Positions 7,265 to 27,400 of a stretch of 56,657 nucleotides of DNA are shown one piece after another. The position numbers were made by a program, and so were the translations under genes. The notes beneath the pieces were generated by a model. It was not told where the DNA came from and did no database searches. It saw only the letters and a list, made by a program, of their open reading frames with translations. Within the stretch, counting starts at the first letter, position 1. Every line of letters starts with the position of its first letter. Source of the DNA: Longimicrobiales bacterium (GTDB lineage: Bacteria; Gemmatimonadota; Gemmatimonadetes; Longimicrobiales; Gaopeijiaceae); NCBI GenBank assembly GCA_028278645.1, contig JANQDZ010000042.1, positions 1 to 56,657 on the forward strand. Reading direction: 5' to 3'.

Positions 7265-8623
7265 ATGTTTAAAAAATGCATCTCATTCGGCTTCCTGGTT
7301 GCCTCCAGCCTCTTCCTCATCCCCGAAGTCCAGGCACAAAAGATTGAATACCCCCCGGAAGAATTCGCCACACGACGGCAAGCCCTCTGCAACTCATTGG
7401 GGAATGAGGGTTTGGTGTTGATGTTCGGGAAAACGATCGTCCCGGCCGGCATCCGGTTCAGACAAGACAACGACTTCTATTACCTGACCGGTAACGAGGA
7501 CCTGAACGCCATCATGTTCATGGACGCCTCGTCCTGTGCCGCTACCCTATTCCTGCCTGCCCAAACTGAAAGAGAGGCTAGCCGGGACGGATGGAATCTC
7601 CTGAACCAGGAAGGGGGCGCCCAAGCCCATGGGTATGCCGCTGTTCATCCCTTGACCCATCTACAGGAGTTCCTCGCCCGGAACCGGAACGGAGGCCAGC
7701 AAACCCTCTACACCCGGCTCTCGGAGAGCACGGAGGTCGATCAATCCCGGGCGGACATGGCGATCTACACGGGTCGGCGGATGGCCAATCCCTTTGGCGC
7801 CTTCCCTTCGGAGGACGCCTGGAGGGTCCAGACTCTGAAGGAGCGATTCCCTTATTACGATCTCAAAGACATCACACCCCACATAGACCCGCTTCGGATG
7901 ATCAAAACCCCTCGGGAGATCGAAGCGCTGAAGCGAAACGGGTGGGTGAGCGCCGAAGCCCACATTCGGGCAATCGGGGTGACTCGAGTGGGGGGGTGGG
8001 AGTACGAGATCGAAGCGGAAGCCACCCACACCATGCTGCATTTCGGAGCCGAGGGCGCCGGGTACAACGCAATCGTCGGCGCTGGGCCCAACAGCAACAT
8101 CTGGCACTACCAGGACAACGACCGGCAGCTCCAAGACGGCGACATCATCGTGATGGATTACGGCGCCGACATGGGTTACCTCACCATGGACATCACCAGG
8201 ACCTGGCCGGCTTCCGGAGAGTTCACCGAGCTTCAGGAGAGAGCATACAGGTGCACACTAGAAGCTGAGAAAGCCATCATCGCCGCCATGAGGCCTGGGG
8301 TCACCCGCGAAGAAACCCGAGCCATCGCCGCCGAGATCTTCGAGCGGTGGGGCTTTTCGGATCAATACCCGGGTGGGGCCGGTCACTTCGTCGGAATGAG
8401 CGTCCACGACGTGGGTGACTATGACCTCCCTCTCCAGGCCGGAATGGTGATCGCCGTAGAGCCCATCATCGACATCCCGGAGGAGGACCTTCACATCCGC
8501 ATCGAGGATACGGTTCTGGTAACGGAGGACGGACCGGTTATCCTCTCGGCCCACGTGCCCAAGGAGTTGGAGGAGGTGCTGGCCTTGGTGGGGCGGAGTG
8601 TGGAGAAGCGCCCCCGCAACTGA
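7265..8623 (+). CDS. Secreted Xaa-Pro aminopeptidase (M24B)
   Basis: A 452-aa metallopeptidase with a signal peptide (residues 1-25, ending VQAQ), preceded by GAGGG four bases before the ATG. The N-terminal creatinase-like domain (residues about 30-190) contains FRQDNDFYYLTG, the usual aminopeptidase P hallmark. The C-terminal pita-bread domain shows the metal ligands: Asp in IVMDYGADMG, Asp in TMDITRTWP, His in AGHFVGMSVHD, Glu in VIAVEPIIDI and Glu in IRIEDTVLV. It should cleave X-|-Pro bonds with two Mn or Co ions, here outside the inner membrane, which complements the DPP-IV peptidases in the window for proline-rich peptides. A terminator follows. Confidence 0.93.
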   Translation: MFKKCISFGFLVASSLFLIPEVQAQKIEYPPEEFATRRQALCNSLGNEGLVLMFGKTIVPAGIRFRQDNDFYYLTGNEDLNAIMFMDASSCAATLFLPAQTEREASRDGWNLLNQEGGAQAHGYAAVHPLTHLQEFLARNRNGGQQTLYTRLSESTEVDQSRADMAIYTGRRMANPFGAFPSEDAWRVQTLKERFPYYDLKDITPHIDPLRMIKTPREIEALKRNGWVSAEAHIRAIGVTRVGGWEYEIEAEATHTMLHFGAEGAGYNAIVGAGPNSNIWHYQDNDRQLQDGDIIVMDYGADMGYLTMDITRTWPASGEFTELQERAYRCTLEAEKAIIAAMRPGVTREETRAIAAEIFERWGFSDQYPGGAGHFVGMSVHDVGDYDLPLQAGMVIAVEPIIDIPEEDLHIRIEDTVLVTEDGPVILSAHVPKELEEVLALVGRSVEKRPRN

Positions 8624-11538: not shown

Positions 11539-11883
11539 TTCTCTCGGTTGATGTGACATTCGACTTCGGTCCATCTCGAACCAAAGCGTCCAGTAACGGG
11601 AATCCCTCTGTACCCTCCAGGTCCGACCCTCGATCCAAAGTCGACCAAACCTGATCCCGCACCTTTCCTGCATCCGACGGTGGGATTCCGCCTGGGGAAG
11701 TGTCTCCTGAAGGAGGGCCTCGGAGAATGGAGGAGCCGGCCGACTTCGTCAATGCGTGATCGGTCGATCCAGAAACGACTCCCTTGAAAACTCAGGGGCG
11801 GGACCCCAATCATTCGGACTTCCGACCCGCGTATCTTGCGGTCGAACCCAAAAGCGCCGGCTTTTCACAACGGACAACTACCA
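11539..11883. other. Divergent intergenic region, no gene recognised
   Basis: These 345 bases separate the methyltransferase and symporter genes. Reading frames exist on both strands but their translations are Arg/Pro/Ser-rich and resemble nothing; none has a good ribosome-binding site except the downstream starts. TTGAAA at 11784-11789 could be a -35 box for the symporter, but the matching -10 is poor. Promoters for both flanking units must lie here. Confidence 0.5.
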
Positions 11884-13206
11884 ATGACCCAGCCACAACC
11901 GCGAGACTCCTTCACAACGAGATGGGGATTCATTCTGGCCGCCGCGGGGTCCGCTGTCGGATTAGGAAATCTCTGGATGTTTCCCTGGCGCTTGGGAGAG
12001 TTCGGCGGGGCCGCCTTCCTGATCCCGTACCTTGTGTTCGTCTACGTCCTGGGCACGACGGGGCTGATGGGAGAGTTCGCTTTCGGGCGATGGGCTCAAA
12101 AGGGCGCCATGGGAGCCTACGACAAAGCTCTCGAGGAACGGGGTATGGGATTCGGGAGAGTCCTTGGCGCCTACCCGATCTTGGTCCTCCTCGGTGTGTT
12201 GATCTTCTATCTCATCGTGTCAGGCTGGGTGCTTCGGTATCTGGTGTCGGCCCTCTCCGGGAATCTCCTGGGCGCAGGGCCTGCTGAGGATTACTTCAAT
12301 CAGTTCTCCGGAACCTCGGAGAGTATTTGGTGGCAGGCGTTGGCGGTGGTACTGACCGGAGCCATCCTCGTGCTTGGCATCTCGAGAGGAATCGAACGAG
12401 CCACGAAAGTGATGATGCCGCTGCTCCTCGGGCTCTTGGTAATCCTGCTCATCCGGTCGGTGACCCTCCCCGGAGCCAGCGAGGGGATCCGGTACCTCCT
12501 GGTTCCGGAGTGGTCGTATCTTCAGCGACCTCTCACCTGGGGTATGGCCCTGGGGCAAGCCTTCTTTTCCGTCTCGCTCACCGGCGCCGGAATGCTCGTG
12601 TACGGTAGCTACCTTAAGAGAGACTTCGACATCCCAAACGCAGCCCTGAACACGGTCACCCTCGATTCGGCCATGGCCATCATGGCGGCTCTCATCATCA
12701 TGCCGGCCGCCTTTGCGTACCAGATCGATCCGGCTGCAGGCCCACCACTCCTCTTCATTACTCTAGTCAGCGTCTTCCAGAACATGCCCGGCGGTCAGGT
12801 CATCGCCATTCTGTTCTTTCTGGGGGTCCTCTTTGCGGCGGTATCCTCCCTCCTGGCCATCAAGGAAGCGGTGGTGGAGGCCGCCATGGACCAGTTCTCA
12901 TGGACCCGGAGGACCGCCGTCCTCTGGATCGCCCTGGTGGCTTTTCTCTGTGGAATTCCTCTCGCGGTCAATCAGGGCCGTTTCGACAGTTTCGTCGATC
13001 TGATCACGGTCTACCTGGTTCCCTTCGGTGCAGCCATCGCCGGAGTTCTTTTCTTCTGGGTCCTGGGAATACACCGAGCCCGGGCCGAGGTAAACATCGG
13101 CGCCAAAAAACCCGTAGGTGCCTGGTGGGAGCCAGTGGCGAAATACCTGTTCGTCGGTGTGGCCGTGGCCATCATCGGCCTTTCCATGGCTTTCAGAATC
13201 GGGTAG
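11884..13206 (+). CDS. Neurotransmitter:sodium symporter (SNF/LeuT family)
   Basis: A 440-aa inner-membrane Na+-coupled symporter. The ATG at 11884 starts MTQPQPRDSFTTRWGF, the usual short cytoplasmic tail. TM1 reads LAAAGSAVGLGNLWMFPW, the signature unwound helix that binds Na+ and substrate; TM6 reads GQAFFSVSLTGAGMLVYGSY, again as in LeuT. About 11-12 hydrophobic segments follow to the C-terminus. Bacterial members import amino acids such as Leu, Ala, Trp or Tyr; the substrate here is not predictable. The next gene is an exported M28 peptidase 51 bases downstream, consistent with peptide digestion followed by amino-acid uptake. Confidence 0.94.
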   Translation: MTQPQPRDSFTTRWGFILAAAGSAVGLGNLWMFPWRLGEFGGAAFLIPYLVFVYVLGTTGLMGEFAFGRWAQKGAMGAYDKALEERGMGFGRVLGAYPILVLLGVLIFYLIVSGWVLRYLVSALSGNLLGAGPAEDYFNQFSGTSESIWWQALAVVLTGAILVLGISRGIERATKVMMPLLLGLLVILLIRSVTLPGASEGIRYLLVPEWSYLQRPLTWGMALGQAFFSVSLTGAGMLVYGSYLKRDFDIPNAALNTVTLDSAMAIMAALIIMPAAFAYQIDPAAGPPLLFITLVSVFQNMPGGQVIAILFFLGVLFAAVSSLLAIKEAVVEAAMDQFSWTRRTAVLWIALVAFLCGIPLAVNQGRFDSFVDLITVYLVPFGAAIAGVLFFWVLGIHRARAEVNIGAKKPVGAWWEPVAKYLFVGVAVAIIGLSMAFRIG

Positions 13207-13257: not shown

Positions 13258-14859
13258 GTGTACGCACCAACGGTTTTGGGGCGGTTCTGTCTGGTGGTTC
13301 TTGGCATATTGGGTTCGGTAGCCTGCGGACAAGCTCAATCCATCAGCAATGCGCTGGAGTCCATCACCGAGGCAGAGCTCAGAGACCACATCTACTTTCT
13401 GGCCGCCGACCTTCTCGAAGGCCGGGACGCCGGAACTCCCGGCTACCAGCTGGCTGCCGAGTATTCGGCGATTCATCTGGAACAGGCCGGTCTCGAGACC
13501 ATGTTCACCGACTCCGCCGGATCCCCGTCTTACTTCCAACAAATCCAGTTCGCGACCTCTGCGCTGAACGACCGGACCAGCTTGGTGGTCCACACTGGGG
13601 GCTCCGAGAGGACCCTCGTGCGCGGCGAGGACTACGTGATCCAGGAGTTCATGGCCTCCGGAGCCGACCGAAACACCTTCGAAACCCCGGTCTTCCTCGG
13701 CTACGGCATCGAGGAGCCCGACCTGGGGTGGAACGACTACGAAGGGCTCGACGCAAAGGGAAAGATCGGCGTGATGATCGTCGGCGCGCCGGTCAGGAAC
13801 GGCGATCCCGTCCTACCCCCCGAGCTACACCAGCTCTACAGCAGTCTGCAACAGAGCGCCAACGCGAGGTTCCAGGCGGCCATGAACCACGGTGTCACGA
13901 CCGTGGTTGTCATCCTGGACGAAGATTCAGCGGGTCTTTGGGAACTCATCAAGAGCCAAGCCAGCAACCCCTCGATCCGACCCATGACGGAAACACCCCA
14001 CGGCAACGTCCCGGCGCCGTCTTTCTCAGAGCTGGTCCTGATGAAGCCTGAGACTGCGGTAGACCTACTCGCGGGGATCGATGTTGAACTGGAAACGGGG
14101 GAGGGCCAGTACACCACAGGGCCCATGGAAGGTGTACAGCTCTCCCTGGAAACCAGGCACGATCTGGAGCCGGGATACTCCTCCCCCAACGTGGTCGGCC
14201 TTCTACCAGGCACGGACCCCGTGCTGAAGGACGAGTACATCGTCATTACGGCCCACCTCGATCATGTGGGGATCCAGAATGGAGCGATCTTCAACGGAGC
14301 TGACGACAACGCCAGCGGTTCCGCGGCGGTGATCGAGGCCGCCGAAGCTGCGGCCATGGCCCCTGGGAAACGATCGATGATCTTTGTCCTCCTCACAGCG
14401 GAGGAAAAGGGTCTTCTGGGGTCCATGGCCTTTGCCAGCAGTCCTCCCGTGCCCATCGACCAGATCGTTTTGAACATCAATCTCGACATGGTGGGAAGGA
14501 ACTCCAGGGACTTCCCCGACGTCCTTCTTGCCATGGGATCGGAGAACGGCCGAGCCGACCTGCTGGAGATGATCAGAGAGGTGAATGAGGGCGGCATACA
14601 CGCGCCCCTGGACTGGCGCTTGAACGAGGGGCCCGATCCCCACAACCATGTCCAGCGAAGCGACCAGATGTCCTTCATGCAGCGGGGGATCCCGGCAATC
14701 CTCATCACCAGGGGTTTTATGGGCCCGGACTACCATGAACCCAGCGATGACCCGGACACCATCAACTACGAGAAGGTCCTCCACGCCACACGACTAACGT
14801 TCGGCTTGGCGATTGAGGCGGCCAACCGGGACGTACTGGACTTCGGGGCCGGTGGTTGA
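13258..14859 (+). CDS. Exported M28 metallopeptidase
   Basis: A 533-aa zinc aminopeptidase starting with GTG (GGAG nine bases upstream). Residues 1-26 are a signal peptide; a Cys at GSVAC could make it a lipoprotein, though the lipobox is imperfect. A PA-like inserted domain (residues about 105-300) separates the first strand from the catalytic part. The two-zinc site is complete: His and Asp in ITAHLDHVG, Asp in NGADDNASGSA, Glu-Glu in TAEEKGLLGS, Asp in NINLDMVGR and His in PDYHEPSDD. It removes N-terminal residues from peptides outside the inner membrane. Probably co-transcribed with the symporter. Confidence 0.93.
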   Translation: MYAPTVLGRFCLVVLGILGSVACGQAQSISNALESITEAELRDHIYFLAADLLEGRDAGTPGYQLAAEYSAIHLEQAGLETMFTDSAGSPSYFQQIQFATSALNDRTSLVVHTGGSERTLVRGEDYVIQEFMASGADRNTFETPVFLGYGIEEPDLGWNDYEGLDAKGKIGVMIVGAPVRNGDPVLPPELHQLYSSLQQSANARFQAAMNHGVTTVVVILDEDSAGLWELIKSQASNPSIRPMTETPHGNVPAPSFSELVLMKPETAVDLLAGIDVELETGEGQYTTGPMEGVQLSLETRHDLEPGYSSPNVVGLLPGTDPVLKDEYIVITAHLDHVGIQNGAIFNGADDNASGSAAVIEAAEAAAMAPGKRSMIFVLLTAEEKGLLGSMAFASSPPVPIDQIVLNINLDMVGRNSRDFPDVLLAMGSENGRADLLEMIREVNEGGIHAPLDWRLNEGPDPHNHVQRSDQMSFMQRGIPAILITRGFMGPDYHEPSDDPDTINYEKVLHATRLTFGLAIEAANRDVLDFGAGG

Positions 14860-15073: not shown

Positions 15074-15523
15074 ATGGTCAACGTGCCCCGAACACTGGTA
15101 TCCCTGAGTTTGGCGCTGTTCCTATCGGGGTGCGCAGCGCTCAACAACCCTTCCCGGACCGACCGCACCGAGGGCGGGATCCGGAACGAGGGAGGTGCCA
15201 CCATCATTTCCGGCGTGGCCCTGGATGAAAAGAGAGGATCCATCCTTTATACCATGGAAGGTCGGGTACCGGGAATGCAGATCCAACGACGCACGGATAA
15301 GTGCCCGGAAATTACCCTTCGTAGCTTCGTGCCTTACCAGTCGGCGATCAATCCCCGGGTATACGTTGACGGAACTCGCACGGTCGACACCTGCATCCTG
15401 GAGAGTCTTATCACCGACAACGTGGAGTCCGTCGAGATCTACCCCATGGGCGTGACCATGCGTCCCGGCTATTCCACCCACGCCCACGGTCTGATCCTCA
15501 TCTTCATGCGGGGAGGCCATTAA
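15074..15523 (+). CDS. Lipoprotein consisting of an isolated TonB-plug-like domain
   Basis: A 149-aa lipoprotein: ATG at 15074 with AAGGAGG seven bases upstream, and LALFLSGC giving Cys at about residue 20. The remainder reads like the plug of a TonB-dependent receptor without any barrel: ILYTMEGRVPGMQIQR, CPEITLRSF, NPRVYVDGTRTVDTC, then DNVESVEIYPMG and THAHGLILIFMR. These match in order the plug elements of the SusC encoded nearby (NIVNSLQGNIAGVNVTN, ARIVIRG, PLFVIDGFPVD, NIENISVLKG, NGAVVITTK). Two Cys residues could form a disulfide. It converges on the susCD operon with a shared terminator region. Function unknown; a soluble decoy or partner of TonB or the barrel is inference. Confidence 0.78.
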   Translation: MVNVPRTLVSLSLALFLSGCAALNNPSRTDRTEGGIRNEGGATIISGVALDEKRGSILYTMEGRVPGMQIQRRTDKCPEITLRSFVPYQSAINPRVYVDGTRTVDTCILESLITDNVESVEIYPMGVTMRPGYSTHAHGLILIFMRGGH

Positions 15524-15552
15524 AAATCCCAACTCCGTCGAACGTCCTTGGC

Positions 15553-15595
15553 AAAAAAAAAGAAGCGCCCCCCGGAAGTGGTTCCGGGGGGCGCT
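15553..15595 (-). terminator. Intrinsic terminator of the susCD operon
   Basis: A perfect 14-bp stem (15564-15577 with 15582-15595) with a GTGG loop, followed on the minus strand by TTCTTTTTTTTT (15563-15553). It lies 19 bases after the susD stop. On the plus strand it could also slow transcription from the converging lipoprotein gene. Confidence 0.9.
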
Positions 15596-15614
15596 GTTCT
15601 GAGGAAAAGAAGAC

Positions 15615-17066
15615 TCAGTTTCCGGCTGGGTCCCACCACACCTCCGTGGTGATGTTCGGACTGCTCATGCCCTGGGCGGCCAATGCCGCCTGCAGGTTCT
15701 CATTGTTAAACGACTGCTCATCGGGGTTGTAGGAGTACCGCACCGGAATCTTGCCCAACCAGACCAAATCTTCTCCGACTGGCCGATCAGGCACTCCGGT
15801 TCGACGGGCGTTGGACCAGGCTTCGGCCCCGTTCATGAAGAGGCCGATCCACTGCTGAAGGTGGATGTCTTCCAGGCCGGTGTAGGCAATATCCGGGTTG
15901 GCCAGATACGCGTCGATTTGCGCGTCGGTTGGCCCATGTCCCCAGGCATCGTACTGGTTCATGTTGGCCTCGATGGCCTCCATATAGAGTGCTTCCGGAT
16001 CTGCAGTGATCCAGCCTCTCGCTGCCGCCTCCGCCTGTAGGAGGAGGACCTCCGAGTACGTCATGACGGCCGTGGGAGAAGCTGCCCCGTTCGCCCTCCA
16101 GAAATCACTGATCCTGGAGATATCCGCGAACGACACACCGGCCGGGAGGTCATCTCGCCCGTTCTCATGGCCCCGGTATTCACCATCGCTGGCGGCCGGC
16201 TCAGCGTAGGAGAACAGGCGGGGATCGTCGAGGCTCTTCAGAATCTCGACAATGGTACGGCTCATGGCATGGTCGTCCCGGCCCTGCCAGTTCTCGAAGA
16301 AGGGGTTCTCGTAAGGAGCCCCCGGCCAATCGATCATGGCGTTGTCGGCATTGCTGGTGAAGCCACCGGCGTTATAGGCAGAAACGAAGGCAGCCTGGGC
16401 ACCTGATGGATTCACCTCGGACATCCGCATGGCCAGCCGCATGCGAACGGAGTTGGCGAACTTCTTCCACTTCGTGAAATCGTTGCCATACAGGAGATCG
16501 CCGTCCCCGAAACCCTCGGCGCTGGCACTCAACATGCCCGCCCCTGCTTCTAGGTCAGCAAGCAGGGCAGAGTAGATGTCTGATTGGGAGTCGTAAACCG
16601 GCGTGGTGTTTTCCGCACCCTGCAGGGCCTGAGAATACGGTACATCGCCCCAGAAGTCTGTCACGTGATGAAAGATCCATGACTTCCAGATCATTCCGAC
16701 CCCTTGGGCGTTCACCAACCCTTCCTCGGCGCCGGTTTCGATAACCGTCTGGATGTCCATCAGGTTACCGGAGTAGTAGTTGTTCCAATAGGCCCTCATC
16801 CGGGAGTCCCGGACGTTACCCGTCTCCTCATCCGGGTATTGGATCTCGGCGAAGTGTTGGGCCCAGACGGCGGTATGGGACATCATCGAAGCGCCGGCCA
16901 AATTGGCGCTCGCGCCCTGTTGGATGGCGGTGGGAAGAAGGAACTGCACCGGCACCGTGGTCGGGGCGTTGGGGTTTGTGTTGAGATCGGTCAGCCCATC
17001 ACTGCAGGCAGCAGCAGCCAGGCCGAGACCGACAAGAAGCGCAACCACTTTGCTCTTGTTTTTCAT
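15615..17066 (-). CDS. SusD/RagB-family outer-membrane lipoprotein
   Basis: A 483-aa lipoprotein (signal GLGLAAAAC, Cys about residue 21; AAGGAGAG ribosome-binding site). DLNTNPNAPT directly after the anchor is the usual SusD-like_2 start. The body is rich in helices with tetratricopeptide-like pairs (WKKFANSVRMRLAMRMSEVN, VMTYSEVLLLQAEAAARGW) and ends with SFNNENLQAALAAQG and WWDP. It forms the lid over the SusC barrel and binds the substrate outside the cell. The gene begins 25 bases after the susC stop. SusD-like_2 members often go with peptide or mixed substrates, so a carbohydrate substrate cannot be assumed. Confidence 0.93.
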   Translation of the reverse strand: MKNKSKVVALLVGLGLAAAACSDGLTDLNTNPNAPTTVPVQFLLPTAIQQGASANLAGASMMSHTAVWAQHFAEIQYPDEETGNVRDSRMRAYWNNYYSGNLMDIQTVIETGAEEGLVNAQGVGMIWKSWIFHHVTDFWGDVPYSQALQGAENTTPVYDSQSDIYSALLADLEAGAGMLSASAEGFGDGDLLYGNDFTKWKKFANSVRMRLAMRMSEVNPSGAQAAFVSAYNAGGFTSNADNAMIDWPGAPYENPFFENWQGRDDHAMSRTIVEILKSLDDPRLFSYAEPAASDGEYRGHENGRDDLPAGVSFADISRISDFWRANGAASPTAVMTYSEVLLLQAEAAARGWITADPEALYMEAIEANMNQYDAWGHGPTDAQIDAYLANPDIAYTGLEDIHLQQWIGLFMNGAEAWSNARRTGVPDRPVGEDLVWLGKIPVRYSYNPDEQSFNNENLQAALAAQGMSSPNITTEVWWDPAGN

Positions 17067-17091
17067 GATAGTCTCTCCTTTGCCCTTGCCG

Positions 17092-20000
17092 TCACGGAGT
17101 GATGGTGAAGGTAAGCCCGATGCTCCGGGCCGATGGGAACTGGCCTGACTCGAGGCCTTGAACGTTACTGTTGTCGAATGCGGTCTCGGGGTCGATGTTC
17201 GGAGCGTTCGGGGACCACAGGTACAGGTTCCGTCCGATCAGAGCGACGCTTCCGCTGGAAAAGCCCAAGCGGGCCACCCATGAGTCAGGAAGCTGATAGC
17301 CCAGCCGTACCTCCCTGAGCTTGATGTACGTGGCGTCGAAGATCCCCGACTCTTGGTTCCCGTAGTTCCGGCCGAAGTAGGACTGGCCGCAGACTACCAC
17401 GTCATCAACACCGTCTCCGTTGATCGATCCATCCGGCAGGACGCCGTCCACCACGATACCGGGATCACAGTGGTCGTTTGTCCGGCCAATGAGGGTGGAC
17501 TTGAGAACACCGGCGTACTCACCGAACCAGTTCGTAACGGAGAAGATGTCTCCGCCCCTCTGACCGTCCAACAGGAAGCTCAGGTCGAAGGAGCCGTAGC
17601 TGAACCTGTTTTGGATACCGCCGATCCAGTCCGGGTTGTAGTTCCCCAGGATGCGGCGATTGTTATCCTTTTGCGGGCGGCCCCTGGAGTCCAGCAGCCA
17701 GCGTCCCTGCTCGTCCTTGAGGTAGCCGTTGCCGAAGAAGAGCCCGTATGGCTCACCTTTCCGGGCTTCGACGTTCATGCTCCACTGTCCGCCCAGACGG
17801 AGCGTTTTCAGGTCGCCGTAGAGGTCAACGACCTCGGAGTTGTTCTTACTCCAGTTCATGGTCACGTTCCACCGGAACCCGTTGTCCAACCGGACCGGCA
17901 TGGCTTTCAACAGCAGCTCAACACCGTGGTTCCGAATCTCACCGGCGTTCAGCCGTTGAGTGGTATAGCCACTGGTACTGGAAATCTGCACGCCCAGGAT
18001 CTGGTTTTTCGTGCTCCGGTCGTAATAGGTGACGACGAAGCCGAGACGTTCGTTGAAGAACCCGAGGTCGGCGCCGACCTCCCAGGCCGTGGTCTCTTCC
18101 GGTTTCAGAGTTTCGTTCGGAAGCTCGTTGGGCACACGGAACATGGGCGTGGAGCCCCAGGGCTGCAGAGTGCCATATACGGACGCTAGCTGGTATGGGC
18201 CGGCGTCGTTTCCTACCCGCGTCCAGCTGGCCCGGACTTTCCCGGAGCTGAACAGATCGCTGCTCATATCGAGAGCATCGGTGAAGACAAAGGCCGAGGA
18301 GATCGATGGGTAGAAGTAGGAGTTCGCACCATCTGGAAGGGTGGATGACCAGTCGTTCCGGCCGGTCATGTCCACGTTCCACCACCCTCTGTAGTTCAGG
18401 CTCACGGAACCAGAGATACTTCTCGTCTCCCACTGGGTGAGGTTATCCGTCGGAGACACGGTCCCTTTGTCGTTGTCGATGGTGAAGAGCCCGGGTACGG
18501 TGATCTTCGTTACCCCGACGTTGGACGTTTCATGGTGGAAGGTGGCGATATGCGAACCGGCCGTCACGTCCATGGAAATGTCTGGAGTGAGCTGCCGCGT
18601 CGCGCTGACCAAAAGGTCGGCATTGGTCAAAGACCGGTAGATGGTGTTCTCACCGAATCCCCCGTCAGGGTTGTCCAAACTATGGACCTCGACAACCCTC
18701 TTGCGATGGTCCCGGGACCAGTCCCGTCCGATCCGGCCTGTGGCCGTGATCCAGTCGTTGACCTGATAGGTCAGGTCGGCGTTGGAGAGGAGGCGGTCCT
18801 TTTCGTCGTAATTCTTGTTGACCAGTGCCCCCCAGAATGGGTTGTTGTGGTAGTTGTAGTTCCAGTTGTACTGGCCGCCGATTATACATGGCGATGGTTC
18901 ATCTCCAGTGCACCGGTAATTCCTCAGGGCATTCATGTCCGTCTGCCGACCGAACCAGGTGAACGACTGCATGGGATTGTCGTCAGTATAGCCGGTGCCC
19001 GGCCGATTCTCGTTATCCGAATCGATATAGCTCACCGACGCGTTCGCCTGGAGCCGGTCCGTGATCTCCGCCCCACCCTTCAGGCCCAGGGTGAGTCGGT
19101 TCATTTTCATCCCCGGCATCATCCCGGACAGATTCATATTCGCGACGGAAAGACGAATGTGGCTGTTCTCTGCGGCCCGGGAGACTGCAACGTTGGTATT
19201 CAGTGTTTTTCCTGTATCCCAGAAGTCCCGGACGTTGTTCGGGTGGGCCACCCAGGGCATGTTTGGACCGGTGAACTGATCGATGAGGCGCCCGTCCAGC
19301 TTCGGCCCCCAGCTTTCGTCCACCGCGTCATTCAAACCGCCGCCCTGACCGTCCACAAACCTGAATTCCCCATTGATCCCCTGACCGTACTCGTTCTGAT
19401 AGTCCGGGAGCTTGAGGGGGGTTTCGGCAGTGAAACTGACCGTGGCGGTCATTCCGAGGCCACCGCCAGGGGCGCCGGTTCCGGATTTGGTTGTAATGAC
19501 CACGGCGCCATTCGCGGCTCTGGATCCGTAGAGGGCAGCAGCGGCGGGTCCCTTCAGAACACTGATGTTCTCAATGTTTGATGGATCGATCTCGCCCGCT
19601 CCGTTCCCGTAGTCGATCCCACCGTTTCCTCTTTTACTCGCCCAGTTGTCGACGGGGAATCCGTCGATGACGAAAAGAGGCTGGTTGTTCCCTGCGATGG
19701 AGCTGGCGCCACGGATGACGATCCTGGCCGAACCGCCGGTGGGCCCGGCGTTCGTCACATTGACACCCGCGATGTTTCCTTGGAGAGAGTTGACGATGTT
19801 GAGCTCCGGCACGGCAGCAATCTCATCGCCTTGGATGTCCTGCACCGAATAGCCCAAGGTCGCTTTTTCTCTACGCAACCCAAGAGCAGTGACGGTGATT
19901 CCTTCGAGGCCAAGGGCCTCAATCTCCATCCCCACCTCCATGTTGGTCGCAACCGGGACCTCAGCGGTCTTGTAACCCAGGTAGGTGAAAACCAGGGTTT

Positions 20001-20232
20001 CCGCATCGGTGGGAAGGGTGAGAGAGAAGTTACCTCGGCTGTCTGTGAGTGTCCCGATCCTGGTCCCTTGGACAAAAACCTGGACACCCGGTAGTGGTTG
20101 TTCCGATCCCATGACCGTCACGTTTCCGGTAACGGTCCTCAGTTCCTGTGCGTTCCCGGTCCAAGGCAACGCCAGAAGCAAAGTGAGGGATAGGAGGGTC
20201 GACAACCCAAGACGAACTCCGGGTCGTAGCAT
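17092..20232 (-). CDS. SusC/RagA-family TonB-linked outer-membrane receptor
   Basis: A 1046-aa receptor: signal peptide 1-28 (NAQE), a carboxypeptidase-regulatory-like domain (residues about 32-108, PLPGVQVFVQGTRIGTLTDS), then the plug (about 115-250: IVIRGASSIAGNNQPLFVID and ENISVLKGPAAAALYGSRAA) and a 22-strand barrel to the C-terminus (RSIGLTFTITP). ATG has AGGAGG seven bases upstream. With SusD it takes up oligomers by TonB energy. A GH29 fucosidase lies 3 kb away on the far side of two small plug-like proteins, so a fucosylated glycan is one possible substrate. The gap before it (20233-20497) contains TTGACA on this strand at 20402-20397. Confidence 0.95.
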   Translation of the reverse strand: MLRPGVRLGLSTLLSLTLLLALPWTGNAQELRTVTGNVTVMGSEQPLPGVQVFVQGTRIGTLTDSRGNFSLTLPTDAETLVFTYLGYKTAEVPVATNMEVGMEIEALGLEGITVTALGLRREKATLGYSVQDIQGDEIAAVPELNIVNSLQGNIAGVNVTNAGPTGGSARIVIRGASSIAGNNQPLFVIDGFPVDNWASKRGNGGIDYGNGAGEIDPSNIENISVLKGPAAAALYGSRAANGAVVITTKSGTGAPGGGLGMTATVSFTAETPLKLPDYQNEYGQGINGEFRFVDGQGGGLNDAVDESWGPKLDGRLIDQFTGPNMPWVAHPNNVRDFWDTGKTLNTNVAVSRAAENSHIRLSVANMNLSGMMPGMKMNRLTLGLKGGAEITDRLQANASVSYIDSDNENRPGTGYTDDNPMQSFTWFGRQTDMNALRNYRCTGDEPSPCIIGGQYNWNYNYHNNPFWGALVNKNYDEKDRLLSNADLTYQVNDWITATGRIGRDWSRDHRKRVVEVHSLDNPDGGFGENTIYRSLTNADLLVSATRQLTPDISMDVTAGSHIATFHHETSNVGVTKITVPGLFTIDNDKGTVSPTDNLTQWETRSISGSVSLNYRGWWNVDMTGRNDWSSTLPDGANSYFYPSISSAFVFTDALDMSSDLFSSGKVRASWTRVGNDAGPYQLASVYGTLQPWGSTPMFRVPNELPNETLKPEETTAWEVGADLGFFNERLGFVVTYYDRSTKNQILGVQISSTSGYTTQRLNAGEIRNHGVELLLKAMPVRLDNGFRWNVTMNWSKNNSEVVDLYGDLKTLRLGGQWSMNVEARKGEPYGLFFGNGYLKDEQGRWLLDSRGRPQKDNNRRILGNYNPDWIGGIQNRFSYGSFDLSFLLDGQRGGDIFSVTNWFGEYAGVLKSTLIGRTNDHCDPGIVVDGVLPDGSINGDGVDDVVVCGQSYFGRNYGNQESGIFDATYIKLREVRLGYQLPDSWVARLGFSSGSVALIGRNLYLWSPNAPNIDPETAFDNSNVQGLESGQFPSARSIGLTFTITP

Positions 20233-20497
20233 TACGGTGCCTCCTGTAGAGAAGGGGAACAGTTCGCTCCCGCGTAGCCTGGCCTGGTCAGGGCCATCTA
20301 TTACAAATACCCGGGAGTGCCTACTCGGAAATACGCGTTCGAGCGCCTCCTTTCCTTTGGATGATGAATGTTAGGTATTCGCTTTTTGTGGTTGTTTGTC
20401 AACCCCGTCTAATAGTATTGTTCGATGCTGATCAGAGGTCCCTGGGATTGAGGGTCGAACACTCGTTTGAGAAACGAGGAGAAACGCCGGGTGAAAC
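20233..20497. promoter_or_regulatory. Divergent regulatory region between susCD and the plug-like pair
   Basis: A 265-base gap with an A/T-rich core at about 20360-20425. On the minus strand TTGACA (20402-20397) is a full -35 match pointing toward susC, but no good -10 lies at 16-18 bases (best AATACC at 17). On the plus strand TTGTGG and TAATAG are 18 bases apart, pointing toward the first plug-like gene. The exact promoters are uncertain. Confidence 0.4.
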
Positions 20498-21187
20498 ATG
20501 CACCTTTCCTCCGTAGGTATCGTGGTGCTGGTGGTTTTAATCCTCTTCCCCCGTGGGTTGGTCTCCCAGGAAGCTGTCCCCGAAAAGGCTGAGCCTGCCC
20601 ACTCTCTGGCCACCGCACAACTGATCCAACCCACGGATTCCCAGCAAGCATCTTGGAAGAGCCGGATCATGACCGGTTTGGCCGGGGCGGTTTTGGGTGC
20701 CGGCATTGGGTTCTTCGCATCCCAGGTATTCCAAGGGGACTGGGATGAGGGTGGTGGTGGGCAAGCGGTCAACCGACCAACCTGGGCGGCATTAGGGGGG
20801 GCCGGCGGATTCGCATTCGGCATCTCCGTGCCCATCGGTCGTACGGCCCCGGGATCCAAAACTTCCCTTCCCGGCGACAGCCGCTTCATCATTACGGGTG
20901 AAGAGATCCGCCAGGCCTCACTCGCCAATGCCATGGAGGCAGTGGAGTTTTTCCACCCCGAGTGGCTCCGGCAGCAGCGTCCGGACTCCTTCGAAGATTT
21001 TCGGGTTTTCACAGCCGGGGAAATCCCGGTATACTTCGACAACGCCCGTCTAGAGGGAATCAATGACCTTGCTGGGATCAGCGCCAGCAATATCAGGTCG
21101 ATCCGGCTTCTCACCACTCAACAGGCCACGATGCGATGGGGTACCGGGCATAGATTTGGCGCCATCCAGGTCCTGACCGTGGGCTGA
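20498..21187 (+). CDS. Exported glycine-zipper plus TonB-plug-like protein, copy A
   Basis: A 229-aa protein with a signal peptide (residues 1-23, ending LVSQ). Residues about 58-107 hold two Gly-rich hydrophobic segments (GLAGAVLGAGIGFFAS and WAALGGAGGFAFGISVPIG) separated by an acidic Gly loop, like a glycine-zipper hairpin. The C-terminal 100 residues follow the plug pattern: ITGEEIRQASLANAMEAVEF, then IPVYFDNARL, NIRSIRLLTTQQATMRWG and FGAIQVLT. No barrel follows. The next gene is a paralogue 60 bases downstream. It is divergent from susC. I know of no named function; see findings. Confidence 0.75.
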   Translation: MHLSSVGIVVLVVLILFPRGLVSQEAVPEKAEPAHSLATAQLIQPTDSQQASWKSRIMTGLAGAVLGAGIGFFASQVFQGDWDEGGGGQAVNRPTWAALGGAGGFAFGISVPIGRTAPGSKTSLPGDSRFIITGEEIRQASLANAMEAVEFFHPEWLRQQRPDSFEDFRVFTAGEIPVYFDNARLEGINDLAGISASNIRSIRLLTTQQATMRWGTGHRFGAIQVLTVG

Positions 21188-21247
21188 CGGTCCCCCAAAC
21201 CCGTCGGGAACAGTTTCTCGACTCAGGGTATTCTGAATCGAAGCCCT

Positions 21248-21946
21248 ATGAGAAACCTACTGATCCGATGCACAATTGCGTTGTCCCTGGCCGTCTCTGC
21301 CGACCCGGGGGCCGCCCAGAGCCCAGAACGGGTGGGTGGTGGGCCGTTCGAGTTCCGGGCGCCTGTCCTACCTTTTGATGGGACCCTCGTGGGGTCCCCC
21401 ACCCTAAGAGAACGGGTCCTCACCGGCCTGGCTGGGGCAGTACTTGGGGCAGGGCTCGGGTACTTCGCCTCCCAGATCGCCACCGGCGACTGGGAGCAGG
21501 GAGACGGACACGGCGGTGTTCACCGACAGAGTTGGGCCGCAGTCGGGAGTGTGGGCGGGCTGGTTCTGGGCTTCTCCATACCGTTGGGTAGCCGGTCCTC
21601 GAGACCCGGCGAGCCATTCCCCTTCGATGACGACCGCTTCACCATCCGCGGGGACGAGATCCGGGAGGCCATGGTGGTCAGTGCGTTAGAGGCCGTGGAG
21701 ACGTTCCATCCGGAGTGGTTGAACTTGCGAGGGCCGGACTCCTTCGTGCCTTACCCCAACGACCGCGTAAAGGCCTATCTCGATAACATCCCGCTGGGGA
21801 ACGCCGGAGAGCTGGCGGGAATCGAGACCTCTATGATCGAATACATACGGTTCTTCGACTCCCGAAAGGCCACTGCCCGGTGGGGTATGGGCCATCCCCA
21901 TGGGGCAATTCAGGTTGTCACCCTCGGAGGAGGGTCACCGCACTAG
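21248..21946 (+). CDS. Exported glycine-zipper plus TonB-plug-like protein, copy B
   Basis: A 232-aa paralogue of the preceding gene with the same layout: signal peptide (residues 1-24, DPGAAQ), Gly-rich hairpin (GLAGAVLGAGLGYFAS, WAAVGSVGGLVLGFSIPLG), then plug-like elements FTIRGDEIREAMVVSALEAV, VKAYLDNIPLG, IEYIRFFDSRKATARWG and GAIQVVTLGGG. Identity between the two is high in the hairpin and moderate elsewhere, so this is an old tandem duplication. The 3' end overlaps the converging fucosidase gene by 12 bases. Confidence 0.75.
   Translation: MRNLLIRCTIALSLAVSADPGAAQSPERVGGGPFEFRAPVLPFDGTLVGSPTLRERVLTGLAGAVLGAGLGYFASQIATGDWEQGDGHGGVHRQSWAAVGSVGGLVLGFSIPLGSRSSRPGEPFPFDDDRFTIRGDEIREAMVVSALEAVETFHPEWLNLRGPDSFVPYPNDRVKAYLDNIPLGNAGELAGIETSMIEYIRFFDSRKATARWGMGHPHGAIQVVTLGGGSPH

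Positions 21947-25075: not shown

Positions 25076-27400
<2,325 letters not shown>

Follow-up and report, generated by a model that had tools for sequence, protein, structure and literature searches.

A barrel-less plug-domain lipoprotein conserved beside one SusC-SusD lineage in Gemmatimonadota

Results

Plug-like genes on both sides of a susCD pair

The window, by which we mean the whole 56,657-nucleotide stretch of Longimicrobiales DNA analyzed here, carries a susC-susD pair with a small plug-like gene on one side and two on the other. SusD (15615-17066, minus strand) is a member of the SusD-like_2 family (PF12771; Pfam match E 4e-101), and SusC (17092-20232, minus strand; TIGR04056) is composed of an NTE (CarbopepD_reg_2), a Ton box, a plug (residues 125-243) and a barrel. 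PlugA (15074-15523, plus strand, 149 aa) converges on susD and lies tail-to-tail with it, while PlugB (20498-21187, plus strand, 229 aa) and PlugC (21248-21946, plus strand, 232 aa) are divergent from susC. A sequence-only reading of the window had described three exported ORFs that lack a barrel on both sides of susCD, and these ORFs were confirmed. PlugA is a lipoprotein in which a linker leads into a single compact plug domain of the TonB-receptor type. PlugB has a signal-like N-terminus, a glycine-rich two-helix segment and a plug-like C-terminal domain (approximately residues 125-229), and PlugC is its tandem paralogue. All three chains stop directly after the plug, with no C-terminal 22-strand barrel.

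PlugA is adjoined on its other side by an M28 peptidase (13258-14859, plus strand), which we regard as context and not as part of the PlugA-SusCD module, because it is common only to the window and a genome of the same genus (G001). A sodium:neurotransmitter symporter (11836-13206), an M24 peptidase (7265-8623) and an S9 peptidase (25076-27400) are also found around susCD and, together with the M28 peptidase, suggest peptide use in this genome. We considered peptides as the SusCD substrate, a guess made from these neighbours and from an amino-acid permease at a related locus (L082), and did not adopt it because the flanking genes vary from locus to locus.

PlugA, PlugB and PlugC are divergent plugs

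Searches with the single proteins were silent. PlugA, PlugB and PlugC gave no match to the plug family PF07715 at E <= 10, thus staying short of the curated Pfam cut-off, and no usable match in Pfam and NCBIfam as a whole. A phmmer search of PlugA against PDB sequences returned weak matches only, none of them with a plug, and pairwise BLAST of the plug proteins against the local SusC was not significant. Comparison of profiles gave a different result: PlugA orthologues against SusC plugs scored 98.5%, and a clean PlugB/C-type profile scored 97.5% both against SusC plugs and against PlugA, compared with 0.1% for the SusD control. With too many iterations the PlugB/C profile took in SusC plugs, and the counts given below were therefore taken from a cleaner two-round profile. 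Run over the 395 genomes of a phylum sample, the PlugA profile also retrieved SusC plugs within frames of about 1000 aa (E ~1e-12).

Structure prediction agreed with the profile comparison. The AlphaFold model of PlugA, built from 13 orthologues, had a pLDDT of 80, and all 50 of the 50 Foldseek matches listed for it were plugs of TonB-dependent transporters (best E 4e-5). Aligned by VIA-align to TonB-receptor plugs, the model reached Z 9.6 over 106 residues, and also Z 9.5. For PlugC, residues 100-203 aligned with SusC plugs at Z 8.1 (95 residues, 2.6 A), while the best Foldseek E-value of its model was 0.065, with none below 0.06. The fold of PlugB would be the same, given its 48% identity to PlugC over 182 aligned positions. 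The earlier claim of a plug fold is thus borne out by profiles and models alike, and the structure prediction against the plug family that had been proposed as its check returned a TonB-receptor plug for PlugA and for the C-terminal domain of PlugC. Overall these results show that all three exported proteins are plug domains that lack a barrel. Because BLAST against SusC was not significant and Pfam was silent, we describe them as divergent, compact plugs.

The lipobox of PlugA reads LSGC, and its cysteine (C20) is invariant among full-length orthologues, as expected of a lipid anchor. Also invariant in the orthologue alignment are a cysteine pair, C77/C107, which from its conservation in sequence probably forms a disulfide, and plug-motif residues that include R83, V98, G100, E121, Y123, G126, G132 and G139. 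The linker that follows the lipid cysteine is unconserved, and the profile alignment indicated that the SusC loop around residues 193-212 is shortened in PlugA. A pattern search that finds the Ton box of the local SusC (EGITVTA at residue 110) found none in any of the 16 PlugA orthologues.

PlugA falls in a different subfamily from PlugB and PlugC. The N-termini of the latter two read as Sec-type signals, neither of the window's two proteins has a lipobox cysteine, and inspection of both by eye identified no Ton box. In the AlphaFold model of PlugC the C-terminal plug domain forms a block with pLDDT mostly 83-90 and the N-terminal half is low-confidence helix, which we read as a glycine-rich two-helix hairpin. 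The glycine-rich segment of PlugC gave a weak Gly-zipper match (E 0.043), and the hairpin of both proteins looks membrane-active. The same architecture of a plug and a glycine-rich two-helix segment as at 20498-21946 was seen in a few relatives (L009-L014). PlugB and PlugC represent a second plug subfamily, found here upstream of susC and elsewhere downstream of susD: 17 of the 148 PlugB/C-type matches listed were near a listed SusD, all 17 of them downstream of it, and 10 of these 17 were on the SusD strand, as in a susC-susD-plug operon.

PlugA is linked to one SusD lineage across the phylum

Examination of the neighbourhood of homologues, also proposed by the sequence-only reading, revealed that the linkage to susCD recurs. 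In a first set of relatives, 17 out of 19 PlugA homologues followed a PF12771 SusD within 1.4 kb on its downstream side and were convergent with it. We also scanned the 84,980 species genomes of a second collection, which overlaps the first set in species, with a 5-row PlugA alignment, the 16-row alignment being too diverse; all 13 PlugA loci recovered were from Gemmatimonadota, and all 13 were convergent beside SusD. The 395-genome phylum sample contained 23 PlugA orthologue loci at 115 bits or more, followed by two truncated copies at 67-68 bits, with all other matches at or below 51 bits. SusD was adjacent and tail-to-tail in 21 out of 22 testable loci of this sample, and about 3.6 kb off in the one exception. 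The outer neighbours of these PlugA-SusD cassettes vary between loci, and PlugA is found in six families of the class (f1, f2, f3, f6, f7 and f10).

The linkage is specific to part of the SusD family. A free plug was found within 1.6 kb downstream of SusD at 22 of 34 high-scoring PF12771 loci, 3 of 6 middle-scoring and 1 of 17 weak ones, and downstream of SusD at 2 of 30 PF07980 loci, where locus orientation was handled by hand and all matches were downstream. Fisher p-values for the high-scoring PF12771 loci were 4.9e-5 against the weak PF12771 loci and 9.9e-7 against the PF07980 loci, both indicative since the score bands were chosen after seeing the data. The remaining 12 of the 34 loci in the high-scoring subgroup had no free plug within 1.6 kb, and none of ten plug-less loci checked had a replacement small lipoprotein. 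Loci of like plug state group together on the SusD tree, and PlugA has been lost or replaced several times.

Pairwise identities of PlugA and SusD were closely correlated over 16 loci (r 0.94; Mantel 0/2000), a value that may largely reflect shared vertical descent. The f10 cassette was nearest to f1 for both PlugA and SusD, as would be seen if the module were transferred in one piece. In two genera (L084 in G022 and L085 in G043) we observed near-identical SusD genes accompanied by a PlugA whose in-frame deletion is the same in both and by a shortened PlugB/C-type gene; G043 has an intact cassette as well. Either a recent transfer or a mix-up of sequence between the assemblies would account for the similarity of these two loci. 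Purifying selection acts on PlugA, with dN/dS of 0.06-0.25 for PlugA pairs as well as for PlugC, the more distant pairs being near saturation. These data show that PlugA and one SusC-SusD lineage (SusD-like_2, PF12771) make up a conserved gene module, and that PlugA has diverged in step with this lineage.

Free plugs elsewhere in the genome

Ten free plugs of the PlugA/B/C type were found in the window's own genome (G000). Eight are close to a SusC gene (in the window and on contigs C34, C94 and C103), and the other two share an 8-kb contig. On C34, two more PlugB/C-type free plugs lie tail-to-tail directly upstream of another SusC (L088:4876-5810), a placement resembling that of PlugB and PlugC beside susC in the window. 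The genome also encodes plug-only lipoproteins that score above the Pfam cut-off, CarboxypepD_reg domains joined to a plug and an M56 peptidase joined to a plug, and these are mostly away from SusC genes. The M56 protein is a BlaR1-type peptidase with a plug-like C-terminal end (PF05569 and PF07715; C85:68431-69762, L104:5435-6763). The plug-only lipoproteins past the Pfam cut-off are at C34:33037-33594, C76:1390-1935 and C78:42535-43227 (L089, L090 and L091), and two of the three have a SusC-like Ton-box-like sequence before the plug, VDIGYGTVDK (in C34:33037-33594) and IDIGYGEVDK. Judged by these motifs, they would make likelier TonB decoys or sensors than PlugA, PlugB or PlugC do. The free plug is thus a unit used often in this genome, with PlugA as the part dedicated to one SusCD lineage. 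With about 20 or more barrel-less copies here, the plug fold now appears as a free building block in Gemmatimonadota. The open-access papers searched describe no function for barrel-less plugs.

Discussion

We have identified three barrel-less plug-fold proteins beside a SusCD pair, which are very probably tied to SusCD in function. For PlugA, the best explanation is that it serves the cognate SusCD importer as an accessory lipoprotein of the outer membrane and docks through its plug fold, a reading to which as a whole we give a probability of roughly 0.5. We infer its docking, sidedness and function; binding to SusC would be in keeping with the plug fold, the genetic linkage and the finding that accessory lipoproteins bind SusC (PMC7618045). 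Since PlugA has no Ton box, TonB would not pull PlugA itself. PlugA would most likely dock on SusC by the surface that plugs use on barrels, or through the resident plug. Once docked, it might stabilise or seal SusC while the resident plug is displaced in transport, a role that we suggest tentatively and by analogy, as the plug of the SusCD levan importer is gone from the barrel in vitro when the SusD lid is closed (PMC7782687) and the T9SS Plug protein bound to SprA (6H3J) closes an outer-membrane pore from the periplasm (PMC7463736). In the intact apo levan utilisome, plugs are present (PMC7618045). The T9SS Plug and PlugA are alike in proposed role only, the T9SS pore being the SprA translocon.

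As an accessory, PlugA is helpful and not essential, because it is absent from about one third of these SusCD loci and truncated in two cassettes. Its gene is convergent with susCD and therefore not co-transcribed with it. Also counting against an accessory role are the plug that SusC already possesses and the many free plugs of this genome that are away from any SusC. A bolder version, which we think doubtful, makes PlugA a third, plug-shaped subunit. As a second cork, lipid-anchored and lacking a Ton box, it would dock on the SusC barrel or inside it and control the pore for as long as TonB keeps the resident plug out. If true, a second cork would mean a two-plug gating cycle for TonB-dependent transport.

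SusE/SusF and other SGBPs are encoded downstream of SusCD in Bacteroidota, and the position of PlugA downstream of susD, together with its lipid anchor, raises the question of whether the plug fold has been recruited here to bind substrate in a surface lipoprotein of this kind. The invariant cysteine pair would fit a stable secreted domain, and lipoproteins of such a kind do bind SusC (PMC7618045). Against this, the conserved positions of PlugA belong to the core motifs of plugs, no ligand site is obvious, and the long SusC plug loop is the one that PlugA has shortened. That loop (approximately residues 193-212) is on the substrate-facing side in known transporters. We therefore consider ligand binding unlikely, if the strongest of the other explanations. 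A role in assembly or stability, in which the free plug fills new SusC barrels or aids folding before the resident plug seats, is in line with the co-divergence of PlugA with the cassette and its dispensability at some loci, and some SusCD pairs depend strongly on one assembly factor, BamH (PMC12611786). However, the gene for a chaperone would be expected to run in the same direction within an operon, and PlugA is convergent, which makes this role rather improbable.

The sequence-only reading had suggested that free plugs could act as exchangeable gates; PlugA would then swap with the resident SusC plug and alter permeability or specificity. The structural premise stands, in that PlugA has the plug fold and keeps the core plug motifs, and displacement of a SusC plug from its barrel has been seen in vitro (PMC7782687). 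Two points speak against gating by exchange: SusC retains a complete, covalent plug of its own, and a swapped-in PlugA could not be opened by TonB without a Ton box. We regard such gating as improbable. It is very unlikely that PlugA is a selfish or drifting by-product, a duplicated fragment of a SusC plug kept by linkage and without a role: that about a third of loci lack it and that it is truncated in two cassettes would be expected of such a fragment, but not the low dN/dS, the invariant lipobox and cysteine pair and the upkeep across six families. Lastly, the suggested roles of TonB decoy or TonB-activity sensor, for which other free plugs of the genome that keep a Ton-box-like sequence such as VDIGYGTVDK might speak, found no support in PlugA, and we rejected them as highly improbable given the Ton box missing from all 16 orthologues and the unconserved linker.

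An accessory lipoprotein of SusCD with the shape of a plug differs from the systems to which it can be compared. PlugA, PlugB and PlugC share fold, element order and core motifs with the SusC/RagA plugs of TonB-dependent transporters (PF07715; 6z9a, 8aa4), but PlugA is free-standing and lipid-anchored, PlugB and PlugC follow a glycine-rich hairpin, and none has a barrel; PlugA in addition lacks the Ton box, has one shorter loop and carries an invariant cysteine pair. Like the accessory lipoproteins of SusCD systems (SusE/F, SGBPs and the surface glycoside hydrolases of utilisomes; PMC7618045), PlugA is small, adjacent to susD and associated with one SusCD type, whereas its plug fold and convergent gene set it apart and its binding to SusC is presumed. 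The other barrel-less plugs of the same genome (CarboxypepD_reg, M56 and Pfam-level lipoproteins) are mostly off SusC genes, and some have a Ton-box-like sequence. The sequence-only reading knew of no described system of this kind, and we found none with free-standing plugs and SusCD in the open-access literature either. The module is best described as a SusCD importer variant with a plug-shaped accessory, and neither the open-access papers nor the profile libraries searched contain it.

How TonB-dependent pores are sealed during plug movement is a long-standing open question. A separately encoded natural plug, kept with one SusCD lineage across a phylum, would offer a genetic handle on pore sealing. 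Overall, the conservation of PlugA beside its pump suggests that SusCD importers of this lineage have an extra part that had gone unrecognised.
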